Source: an uncultured bacterium
Lineage (GTDB): Bacteria; Pseudomonadota; Alphaproteobacteria; Rs-D84
Length of the DNA: 50,520 nucleotides
NCBI GenBank assembly: GCA_950096895.1
Contig: CATNBF010000006.1
Location: 1-50,520, forward strand
Direction of reading: 5' to 3'
Positions 28,389-33,058 of this stretch are shown here, one piece after another. A program made the position numbers and the translations under genes. Position 1 is the first letter of the stretch, and the number at the start of each line of letters is the position of its first letter. The notes beneath the pieces were generated by a model that made no database searches, had not been told where the DNA came from, and saw only the letters and a list, made by a program, of their open reading frames with translations.

Positions 28389-29720
28389 TTATTCGCTTAA
28401 AAACGCACGCAAGGCATCCCCCGCCAATGGCGCGGCATTTTGATCGGCATCAACAATTGAAATCACACGCGGTGACATAAACACCACCAGTTCTGCAAAC
28501 GGCGATATCAGTGTTTCCGGCGTTGTTACAAACGAATGCGTTGGAATACCAATAATGACATAATTGTCACCCACATTCGACGGAATGTTAAAAGATGATA
28601 ATTCCCCGGCCGACGTCCGCAAAACAATTTTCGCATCGATCTTTTTCTGGCCACCGTAATCACCGTACTTTGCCGTCGCCCCGACAATCAAATCTGTTTC
28701 CAGACGGTCTTCCTTGCTGCATTGCCCAATATCAAATCGTGATTGCCAGCCATTGGGAATAACAAACGTTCCCTGGGATATCAAGACAACGTTTGCCTGT
28801 TGATATAAAAATTCTTGCAGTGTTTTGGTGTTGATTTCCGGACTAACCACCAGGGCCCGTCCCACAACCCCCGGGATAGACATCTTGATATTATTTTCCC
28901 CAAACGCCGGCAGCATGTTCATCCACACAATGGGATTATCTGTGCGTGGATAAACGCGGTATACATCAATATCCCATGCCAACATATACTTCTTGGATGA
29001 TACATCCGCGATTAGACGGGCCACCTCTCTCTCGGTTTGATAATTTCCTTCGAATGTAACGGTTTTATCCGACCAATCCACCAACAAATTCCGCAAATCT
29101 GCCCCTCGCATCGCATCCAGCAAGGCCATAATAATACTTTCGTCGCGTGGCATTTTAACCAACCATTTTGCCCGATTATCCAAATGCAATTCGCCAGACG
29201 CGGCATCATAAGAATAATACGTCCGTCCCATCTTGGTCATTAATTCCACCGCATCGGCCAGGGTTCCCGACTGAATCGTGCCTGTAATTTTTTCAATCTG
29301 GGCATCGTCTTCGATAATATCAATGTCGGTACCATCCATTAATTTTTCCAGTGCTTGTTTTACTGTCTTGTTGGAAAATTCGTAATCAGATACCATCAGC
29401 GCGGGTAACGGATCCCCTGCCCCCAGACGCACAATTTCGATCTTTTCTTCGGGAACAACCGATACCACCGATTGATTATTCCAATCCACCCGGCATCGTT
29501 TGGGCAAATCAATTGAAAACCGACGCGCTGTATCGGTTGTTAACGCCGCCTTTTTGGGAAAAATCGGAACAGAATTTTCGTCAATGACAAAATTTTCAAC
29601 CACAGTTACTGTATCATAGGCAGCTTCTTGATTCTTATCGCGCATTTGGGCACACCCAAACATCGGCAGCCAAATGACCGCCCCCAAAATTGCCCCAATA
29701 AATAACTTTATCTTTTTCAT
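28389..29720 (-). CDS. Secretin-like lipoprotein (type IV pilus/T2SS secretin N-domain and C-domain resemblance)
   Basis: Lipobox WLPMFGC; VSDYEFSNKTVKQALEKLMDGTDIDI (STN/N0-like), N1-like repeat, C-terminal ISPFAELVVFMSPRVISIV resembles secretin ELLVxITPRIV. Confidence 0.55.
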   Translation of the reverse strand: MKKIKLFIGAILGAVIWLPMFGCAQMRDKNQEAAYDTVTVVENFVIDENSVPIFPKKAALTTDTARRFSIDLPKRCRVDWNNQSVVSVVPEEKIEIVRLGAGDPLPALMVSDYEFSNKTVKQALEKLMDGTDIDIIEDDAQIEKITGTIQSGTLADAVELMTKMGRTYYSYDAASGELHLDNRAKWLVKMPRDESIIMALLDAMRGADLRNLLVDWSDKTVTFEGNYQTEREVARLIADVSSKKYMLAWDIDVYRVYPRTDNPIVWMNMLPAFGENNIKMSIPGVVGRALVVSPEINTKTLQEFLYQQANVVLISQGTFVIPNGWQSRFDIGQCSKEDRLETDLIVGATAKYGDYGGQKKIDAKIVLRTSAGELSSFNIPSNVGDNYVIIGIPTHSFVTTPETLISPFAELVVFMSPRVISIVDADQNAAPLAGDALRAFLSE

Positions 29721-30575: not shown

Positions 30576-31259
30576 ATGAAAAAATCTGTCTGGTTTTGGT
30601 TATGCTTTGTAATCGCTATTGTGCTGGCGACCTATTTTGCGACCCGTGTTATTATGGTGACATCGGGCCGGGGTCGATTGGGGCAAATACGTCATATTTC
30701 AATCACCACAGATGGGGAAAACGTGGATTTATCTGCCTTGGCCGCCGCCACCGGGATTGCCCCCGGCACGGCATCTTATCGGACCCGCCTGGGGCCGATC
30801 AATGCCCGAATTGCGGCGGTGCCCGGGGTTCGGGCGTCGGCGGTTCGGCGGTTGGCCAATGGAAATTTGGGGGTCCGCGCCGAAATGTATCAAACAATTG
30901 CCCTGTGGACAGATGATGGGGAAACATTTTTTCCTATATCGGGCAATGGAACCATTATCCGCACGCCACAGAAAAATCGCGCTCCGTCGGACGTCTTGTT
31001 TCGCGGCCCGGTGCCCCGTGACATTGATGAAATTACACGGGTGGCGGCAAACCTGGGGGGGGTGCTGGATTACATGGAATGGATTGAAAACCGCCGATGG
31101 AACATGCATACCACGGGGGGAATTGTTGTTTTATTACCCCAAGATGATCCTGCCGCCGCGGTTAGCAAGTTGTTAATCATGAATAAAAACAACCAAATTC
31201 TGGACAAAAAAATATCAACCATTGACATGCGTGACCATGCGCGTGTGCTTGTTAAATAA
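30576..31259 (+). CDS. ftsQ: Cell division protein FtsQ-like
   Basis: Short cytoplasmic tail, single TM, POTRA-like GQIRHISIT...LGPINARIAAVPGVRASAVRRLANGNLGVRAEMYQTIALWTDDGETFFPIS; immediately upstream of ftsA. Confidence 0.8.
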   Translation: MKKSVWFWLCFVIAIVLATYFATRVIMVTSGRGRLGQIRHISITTDGENVDLSALAAATGIAPGTASYRTRLGPINARIAAVPGVRASAVRRLANGNLGVRAEMYQTIALWTDDGETFFPISGNGTIIRTPQKNRAPSDVLFRGPVPRDIDEITRVAANLGGVLDYMEWIENRRWNMHTTGGIVVLLPQDDPAAAVSKLLIMNKNNQILDKKISTIDMRDHARVLVK

Positions 31260-31261
31260 AC

Positions 31262-33058
31262 GTGATGAATTTATTTGATTCGTCTTTTTTGTGCCTGGAT
31301 GTTGGCACCGCCGTCGTACGTGGGATCGCCCATTGCGTGCGTGGGGCACGTATTGTCCGATCGGCGGTCGCAACCGCCGAATGTGACGATACACCGGTCG
31401 CCGCCATAATGGCGGTTGTTGACAATCTGGAACACCAGATGGCCACCCGGTTTACATCTGCGTTTGTAACAGGAAATTTTGGCGATGTTGTTTTTGATAT
31501 TACCGCCCGTCAAACCAAATGGCACGGCCCACATAAAATTGTGGCCGCAGACGTGCGTGACCATGCAACAAAAATTGGGGCACCCGACGGCTTTCACCCA
31601 ATGCATATTATCCCATTACGCTATGACGGGATAAATATACGCAATATGGCCACCCCCATCGGCCAGGTGGATACCGCACTGATGTCTGTGTTTGGGGTAA
31701 TTTCGTATTCACAATCCCATATGTCACATGTGTTTGCCGCCTTGCGACGTGCCCATATTCAAACAGATGGCATTTTTGATTCGATGTTTTTGCTGGCGAC
31801 AGCTATGCGTCCCAAACGCCAAACAATTATGATTCTGGATATGGGGGCGTCGTATACGACGGCATCCATATGGACACCCCGCGGGCCGGTGGCCATGGTC
31901 AAGATCGCACGGGGGCAATCTGAAATTATCAAAAAGATCTCTGAGACGTTTGATATTGGTATGACCGATGCCGCGCGGGTGCGTGGGGGTATTCCCATTA
32001 ATGTGACAGATATGGACCGATTTACACCGGCCGATGCCTTGTTTGGATTTTCACGCGCCGATGTGGCCGATGTCATCAATCCTGTGATGATGGATATTTT
32101 AGGCGAGATTCGAAACAACATGGCCGCCGCCATGGCAAAATACGCCCCGGCCACCTTGATGATCTGTGGCGGGGGATCAGATATTGACGGTATTAACGAT
32201 CTGGTGGCCCAGATGTTTTCAATGCCGATACAAAACATTGGATCTGATGCCACGTTACGCGCCCTGTCGGATACGGTGTGGGATATGCAAACGCCGCGCA
32301 TTGTCGCCTATAACGCACGACGCGACCGCATCGCCCATATGATGCGCCGCATTACCCGTATCTTTCAACCCGGACGCCGCCCCAATCGCCCCCGGGGACG
32401 GGCCGCGGGCCAAATTCCCATTTTGCCCAGTACGCTGGCCTTTGATATGCGCGACCCCATGACATATACCATGTTTCAGTCGGCCGGAATATCAATGATC
32501 CACGTTGATATTATGGATGGATTTTTTGTTGATCGTGTCACAGGCAGCATTGACGACCTGTGTCATATTCGGGCCAATACACGGGCCCATCTATCGGTGC
32601 ATTTAATGACAGAAAGTCCGGCCCACTGGGCGGCCGATGCGATTGCCGCCGGGGCCGATACCGTGATTGTGTCGGCAGGCGCGGCCGGGGTCCGGGATGC
32701 AATTGGCGAAATTCGACGCCGCGGCCGGCGGTTGGGAATTGCCATTTCACCGGATACATCGTTAACGGTGCTAAAACCCATATTGCGGCAAATTGACGTT
32801 GTCTTGGTTATGTCGGTGCGCCCTGGGGCCGGTGGCCAAGAATTTATCCCCAATACACTGGGGCGGATTGCAACATTGGCGGCAACACGCAAAAAATATG
32901 GATTAAAATTTGAAATATCGGTCGATGGTGGAATTAATAATCATACGGCACCTGGGTGCTGGGGTGCGGGGGCCGATACGTTGGTTTCGGGATCATACCT
33001 GGCCCAGGCGGCCGATTTCCCCTTGGCGGTTCAAAATTTATTAAAACGCCGGCCATAG
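31262..33058 (+). CDS. FtsA-like actin-fold protein fused to a ribulose-phosphate 3-epimerase-like TIM barrel
   Basis: N-terminal ~370 aa: LCLDVGTAVVRGIA..., ISETFDIGMTDAARVRGG, LMICGGGSDIDGINDLVAQMFSMPIQNIG (FtsA). From ~32414: ILPSTLAFD...IHVDIMDGFFVDRVTG...HLSVHLM...VVLVMSVRPGAGGQEFIP...ISVDGGINN...GADTLVSGSYL (RPE). One uninterrupted frame. Confidence 0.85.
   Translation: MMNLFDSSFLCLDVGTAVVRGIAHCVRGARIVRSAVATAECDDTPVAAIMAVVDNLEHQMATRFTSAFVTGNFGDVVFDITARQTKWHGPHKIVAADVRDHATKIGAPDGFHPMHIIPLRYDGINIRNMATPIGQVDTALMSVFGVISYSQSHMSHVFAALRRAHIQTDGIFDSMFLLATAMRPKRQTIMILDMGASYTTASIWTPRGPVAMVKIARGQSEIIKKISETFDIGMTDAARVRGGIPINVTDMDRFTPADALFGFSRADVADVINPVMMDILGEIRNNMAAAMAKYAPATLMICGGGSDIDGINDLVAQMFSMPIQNIGSDATLRALSDTVWDMQTPRIVAYNARRDRIAHMMRRITRIFQPGRRPNRPRGRAAGQIPILPSTLAFDMRDPMTYTMFQSAGISMIHVDIMDGFFVDRVTGSIDDLCHIRANTRAHLSVHLMTESPAHWAADAIAAGADTVIVSAGAAGVRDAIGEIRRRGRRLGIAISPDTSLTVLKPILRQIDVVLVMSVRPGAGGQEFIPNTLGRIATLAATRKKYGLKFEISVDGGINNHTAPGCWGAGADTLVSGSYLAQAADFPLAVQNLLKRRP

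Follow-up and report, generated by a model that had tools for sequence, protein, structure and literature searches.

A single-frame fusion of an FtsA-like domain and ribulose-phosphate 3-epimerase in a family of gut Alphaproteobacteria that lacks FtsZ

Introduction

FtsA, whose subdomain 2B is bound by the tail of FtsZ, is understood mainly as the membrane anchor of FtsZ. In vitro, FtsA also assembles into actin-like filaments when FtsZ is absent (PMC4929429, PMC7613929); among the proteins that it recruits are FtsN, FtsK and possibly FtsQ, and it has been proposed to activate FtsW (PMC7613929, PMC10591338, PMC4929429). Walled bacteria without FtsZ are already known, and the obligate intracellular ones tabulated in PMC10591338 are also without FtsA: Chlamydia and Wolbachia supergroup J have neither ftsA nor ftsZ (Table 2 of PMC10591338). 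MreB is kept in both, and Chlamydia additionally keeps FtsQ and FtsK (PMC10591338; PMC7029139; PMC6952346), with MreB implicated in its FtsZ-less division (PMC7029139).

Here we describe a protein in which an FtsA-like domain is joined to a ribulose-phosphate 3-epimerase (RPE). It belongs to Candidatus Enterousia and its kin, gut Alphaproteobacteria with genomes of ~1 Mb. The group has been placed in the GTDB order and family Rs-D84, and its published genome description mentions neither FtsZ nor FtsA (PMC12306168). An earlier note on this DNA knew of no described FtsA-RPE fusion; likewise, in the open-licence literature we found no description of such a fusion or of FtsZ loss in the Enterousia group.

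Results

We analysed a stretch of 50,520 nucleotides (hereafter the window), in which positions 31262-33058 of the forward strand form a single open reading frame of 598 codons without stops. The frame is as given in the earlier note and recurs in relatives. The motifs which that note quoted are as it described them, and so are the helix, the basic linker and the pair of diverged RPE motifs (Table 1). The frame opens with GTG (31262) followed by ATG (31265). Because relatives begin at the same M(N/K)L (M(N/K)L..SSFLCLD), the ATG is the likelier start and probably the true one, giving a predicted protein of 597 aa; residues are numbered from its Met throughout. An ORF similar to ftsQ abuts the start of the fusion in 120 of 124 family loci (median length 227 aa), and the order ftsQ-ftsA is also present in sister families. 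Near ftsQ, the reverse strand of the window (28389-29720) encodes a secretin-looking protein of 443 aa with no Pfam match, and a 446-aa ORF lies at the equivalent place in genome G060.

Table 1. Positions in the window of the fusion gene, its domains and motifs, and the gene upstream.
Feature	Position	Strand	Evidence or remark
ftsA::rpe fusion gene	31265..33058	+	597 aa plus stop; GTG 31262 alternative start
FtsA-like actin-fold domain, residues 1-342	31265..32290	+	NCBIfam ftsA 5e-13; Foldseek; AF2
LDVGT, residues 11-15, presumed phosphate-1 motif	31295..31309	+	L11, D12 and G14 invariant, 78/78
Phosphate-2-type motif DMG, residues 192-194	31838..31846	+	D192 invariant; G194 at least 90%
Adenosine-type motif GGG, residues 302-304	32168..32176	+	G302 invariant; G303 and G304 at least 90%
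Family-specific 11-aa deletion site, subdomain 1A, between residues 37/38	31373..31378	+	Alignment
Family-specific ~10-aa deletion site, subdomain 2B strand region, between residues 256/257	32030..32035	+	Alignment
Family-specific 14-aa deletion site, subdomain 2A, between residues 328/329	32246..32251	+	Alignment
Basic amphipathic helix (predicted), residues 343-367, includes DRIAHMMRRITRIF	32291..32365	+	AF2, hydrophobic moment
Basic linker, residues 368-384, disordered at 371-380	32366..32416	+	pLDDT <50 at 371-380
Ribulose-phosphate 3-epimerase domain, residues 385-597	32417..33055	+	PF00834 1.6e-42; Foldseek 2fli
His413 and Asp415 (HVDIMDG), presumed metal/catalytic	32501..32509	+	Invariant, 78/78
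His446 (HLM), presumed metal ligand	32600..32602	+	Invariant, 78/78
Asp554 (VDGG), presumed catalytic/metal	32924..32926	+	Invariant, 78/78
ftsQ, 227 aa, directly upstream of the fusion	30576..31259	+	PF03799 4.5e-08

In 33 of 34 congeners the fusion is full length in one stop-free frame (43-61% identity), and a fusion profile spans both halves in 12 of the 13 other genera of the family, the thirteenth being split over two contigs. Fusion loci from metagenome assemblies number 80. RPE is present in 175 of 184 family genomes; among the matches listed, family RPEs lie in frames of ~577-655 aa, the exceptions being a single fragment at a contig edge and a few stand-alone second copies, and sister-family RPEs are ~200-260 aa except for out-of-frame overlaps. 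As genomes that were assembled separately, well over a hundred of them, share this one frame, the chance that an assembly or frameshift artefact has joined two genes is negligible. The fusion proposed in the earlier note is thus real, and separate ftsA and rpe genes, which the note had considered might turn up in close relatives, occur only in sister families. One genome of the genus, G112 (95% complete), yielded neither RPE nor fusion, a possible secondary loss or assembly gap.

The N-terminal part scores 48.9 bits against the NCBIfam ftsA model (TIGR01174), far under the cut-off of 175.85, and by sequence is therefore a strongly diverged FtsA. An AF2 model of the fusion, made with 78 related sequences, has a mean pLDDT of 93.3 and comprises two domains and a disordered linker (371-380), with pLDDT mostly above 90 in the FtsA domain. 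The top PDB matches of this part in Foldseek are FtsA structures (4a2a, 1e4g and 7q6f; TMt 0.73-0.76). The proposed FtsA orthology of the N-terminal half accordingly rests on predicted fold and synteny: of the earlier reading as FtsA, the fold and the motifs stood and the curated score threshold was not reached. PilM was considered as another identity and rejected, since its matches are weaker in both NCBIfam and Foldseek (0.53) and ftsQ lies upstream. The nucleotide-site residues D12, G14, D192 and G302 are invariant in 78 fused sequences, and dN/dS values of 0.05-0.13 for the FtsA part (25 close pairs) point to strong purifying selection on this half.

Aligning 16 FtsAs of FtsZ-bearing organisms with 15 fused ones revealed three deletions specific to the family, one each in subdomains 1A, 2B and 2A. 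The 2B deletion, deduced by aligning the sequences of distant relatives, corresponds approximately to positions 274-285 in E. coli FtsA, immediately ahead of R286. The apparent lack of a strand beside the presumed FtsZ-binding face fits a loss of FtsZ binding. The binding of FtsZ through subdomain 2B that is typical of FtsA is missing here, with no FtsZ in the lineage and ~10 aa of 2B gone; the N-terminal half is not a canonical FtsA, and may act in an FtsA-like manner toward other partners.

The AF2 helix at 343-367 is basic and amphipathic, internal and weakly conserved in sequence, and sits where sister FtsAs have their C-terminal membrane-targeting helix. The hydrophobic moment of DRIAHMMRRITRIF is 0.88, compared with 0.46-0.62 for the tails of sister FtsAs, in keeping with the earlier suggestion that a membrane-helix-like segment has been kept between the domains. 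In the 25 close pairs, dN/dS of helix plus linker is mostly above that of both domains.

The Pfam tubulin model (PF00091) detected FtsZ in none of 35 genomes of the genus, compared with 17 of the 18 other genomes of the order and 6 of 6 class outgroups. A profile built from 15 FtsZs of the order and class found none in 156 Enterousia genomes, 103 of which are ≥90% complete and ≤5% contaminated (one noise match, E 0.6), and none in 28 genomes of other family genera (noise, 0.94). Genome G060 consists of one contig (1,001,484 bases, no Ns); among its ORFs of ≥60 aa the best FtsZ score is 7.3 bits, with no GGGTGSG-like tubulin G-box motif, and held-out FtsZs score 495-682 bits. The whole family is without FtsZ. 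The earlier note had suggested that the enzyme might be tethered to the divisome; this idea has to be recast, because the ordinary FtsZ-based divisome that it assumed is missing from a lineage with no FtsZ.

Much of the remaining division and wall machinery is retained: two SEDS proteins, FtsW and RodA, in most genomes, together with MreB, 4-5 transpeptidases (penicillin-binding proteins) and FtsQ. ZapA is normally a partner of FtsZ, and its loss was expected as a second sign of Z-ring loss; this expectation failed, ZapA being kept in 34 of 35 genus genomes (for example, G000:C11:23292-23552). ZapA may have a new partner, possibly the FtsA-RPE fusion, or an unrecognized FtsZ-like protein may exist. 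Its retention is also what could be cited for an FtsZ that is present and has diverged past recognition, so that division would still be FtsZ-based and only the fusion would be new. We consider this very improbable: held-out FtsZs of the order reach at least 495 bits and the best G060 ORF 7.3 with no G-box, the FtsZ profile fails in 184 family genomes and the Pfam tubulin model in 35, and a 2B strand of FtsA is deleted. The opposite loss was seen in G035 (family f2, 97% complete), which has FtsZ, no true MreB match and one SEDS protein.

Where checked in sister genomes, ftsZ is 14 kb from ftsA-rpe or on another contig, which makes a single deletion an unlikely cause of both FtsZ loss and fusion. 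Elsewhere in the order, FtsZ is missing from just one genome, G038 (family f5, 0.7 Mb, 93% complete), which has no match to FtsA, RPE or transketolase and keeps MreB, RodA, FtsW and ZapA. G038 branches as sister of the fusion family (91/83), with a very long branch; FtsZ may thus have been lost before the fusion arose, as judged from this single long-branched genome.

The C-terminal 213 residues score 145.6 bits against the Pfam RPE model (cut-off 21.1) and 185.9 bits against the NCBIfam RPE subfamily NF004076, above its cut-off of 165; with the equivalog TIGR01163 they score 158.5 bits, under the cut-off of 212.6. Sequence comparison with the PDB gave 2fli at 7e-40, and Foldseek aligned the RPE domain to this structure with a TMt of 0.91, an rmsd of 1.5 and 37% identity. 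The Pfam, NCBIfam subfamily and 2fli matches confirm the essentially complete barrel noted earlier. The metal and catalytic residues that the earlier note had found retained (HxD, HLM and DGG), whose roles we assign from what is known of RPEs, are all invariant in the 78 fused sequences, from which the barrel is predicted to be a working enzyme. Values of dN/dS for this part are 0.02-0.13 (25 close pairs), and the barrel is the best-conserved part of the protein (mean pairwise identity 0.69 versus 0.51 for FtsA).

A second, stand-alone rpe was sought in the window's genome (G000; 1.0 Mb, 93% complete) and not found, the fused RPE being the only one there. Six genomes of the genus (G136, G145, G148, G152, G176 and G178) carry a stand-alone RPE of 223-228 aa in addition to the fused one. 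An internal start yielding free RPE was considered and rejected: the linker has no conserved Met, and at position 387 Met is found in 42 of the 78 sequences, the window having Leu there. Nothing therefore indicates that RPE is translated separately.

A non-oxidative pentose-phosphate route without transaldolase is reported for most genomes of this kind (PMC12306168), and transketolase is present in at least 31 of 35 genus genomes, the window's included, which gives the epimerase a pathway in which to act. This pathway is not universal, since transketolase was not found in G012 (97% complete) or G013 (91%), both with the fusion intact. The family's transketolases (G000:C22:1857-2585 and equivalents) are mostly short (~600 aa) and score far below those of most sister families against Pfam.

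RPEs are commonly oligomers, and the barrel could now be chiefly structural, clustering FtsA on the membrane in place of the avidity supplied by FtsZ, or could sense sugar phosphates, with catalysis secondary. Such a role would suit the shared family-wide distribution of fusion and FtsZ absence, the strong conservation of the barrel relative to FtsA, and its persistence where transketolase was not found. It is nevertheless improbable, as the invariance of every catalytic and metal residue speaks for a working enzyme.

The genes ftsA and rpe are direct neighbours in sister families f2, f3 and f6, with overlaps of 17, 1, 1 and 4 bases at the four loci read; in family f4 they are separated by an ABC transporter gene. 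An apparent FtsZ-RPE or ABC-RPE fusion in G048 (an 891-aa frame) was rejected, since the frame overlaps a separate ABC transporter gene out of frame. Phylogenetically, the fused RPEs form one clade (support 100/99) on a long stem (1.83), indicating that the fusion arose once. As sister ftsA and rpe overlap and the fused RPEs form one clade, a single loss of the stop or overlap explains the fusion, and separate overlapping ftsA-rpe genes are probably the ancestral arrangement.

The same geometry raises the question of whether the linkage has any function. With the ftsA stop of sister families overlapping the rpe start by only 1, 4 or 17 bases, a trivial mutation could have made the fusion, leaving two halves that work independently, FtsA in division and RPE as a bystander. 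The disordered, fast-evolving linker and the intact catalytic residues would be expected of such a passive event. However, the linkage persists in 12 of the family's 13 other genera and no reversion was found, the long RPE stem suggests adaptation, and RPE stays fused even in genomes with an extra stand-alone copy. We therefore regard passive fusion as unlikely, although it is the most serious of the alternatives.

Discussion

The explanation that we favour, and hold to be somewhat probable overall, is a bifunctional, membrane-anchored FtsA-RPE scaffold that operates without FtsZ, carries the cell's epimerase and stems from a single ancestral fusion. Neighbouring, overlapping ftsA and rpe were joined once into one frame in the family ancestor, and the fusion is fixed in a lineage that also lost FtsZ. 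The data show the fusion itself, its one origin, the missing FtsZ and the conserved state of both halves. From the features described we infer a role in division, filament formation, membrane binding and enzyme activity for this protein. The C-terminal barrel would be the cell's ribulose-phosphate 3-epimerase, serving a residual non-oxidative pentose-phosphate route. The N-terminal part would be a slimmed FtsA with the fold of an actin homologue and intact nucleotide-site motifs, anchored to the membrane through the amphipathic helix that now lies between the two domains. There, in the absence of FtsZ, it would organize the septal machinery of FtsQ, FtsW and penicillin-binding proteins, probably by itself assembling into membrane filaments or clusters, and possibly with MreB.

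That the family keeps a selected FtsA without FtsZ implies that FtsA has work of its own, and makes an undescribed, FtsZ-free division route probable. Against the favoured explanation are the retention of ZapA, the two genomes in which transketolase was not found, the second RPEs of a few congeners, the weak sequence conservation of the inter-domain helix and the dependence of the 2B deletion on an alignment between distant relatives; the FtsA half could also serve something other than division. We propose more tentatively, as a real possibility short of an even chance, that the family divides by an FtsZ-free cytoskeleton of FtsA-derived subunits that carry, and are perhaps clustered or regulated by, a pentose-phosphate enzyme. 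If true, this would be a mode of cytokinesis beside FtsZ rings, MreB-led division and budding.

Some 180 genomes in which FtsA is kept under purifying selection without FtsZ constitute a natural experiment on the work of FtsA alone and on how little a walled bacterium needs for division. The fusion physically joins central metabolism to the division machinery, and offers a single protein in which this can be tested.

Compared with described FtsAs (PDB 4a2a, 7q6f and 1e4g), the N-terminal half shares the fold, the nucleotide-site motifs and the upstream ftsQ, and a predicted, weakly conserved amphipathic helix follows the domain. It differs in its FtsZ-less lineage, in three family-specific deletions that include the 2B strand, in having the helix internal and an enzyme at the C terminus, and in scoring far under the NCBI ftsA cut-off. 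The C-terminal half resembles known RPEs (PF00834; PDB 2fli and 1rpx) in its complete barrel with all metal and catalytic residues, whereas it is a fused domain rather than a free protein, has altered VPN, HxE and NPGFGG-type motifs and sits on a long stem branch. The ftsA-rpe loci of sister families (L054, L055, L060 and L061) have the same neighbours in the same order, but there the two genes encode two proteins and FtsZ is found elsewhere in the genome. Finally, loss of FtsZ is shared with the peptidoglycan-containing Chlamydia and Planctomycetes and with Wolbachia supergroup J (PMC10591338; PMC7029139; PMC6952346); unlike Chlamydia and Wolbachia J, the Enterousia family keeps ftsA, fused to an enzyme, together with ZapA.
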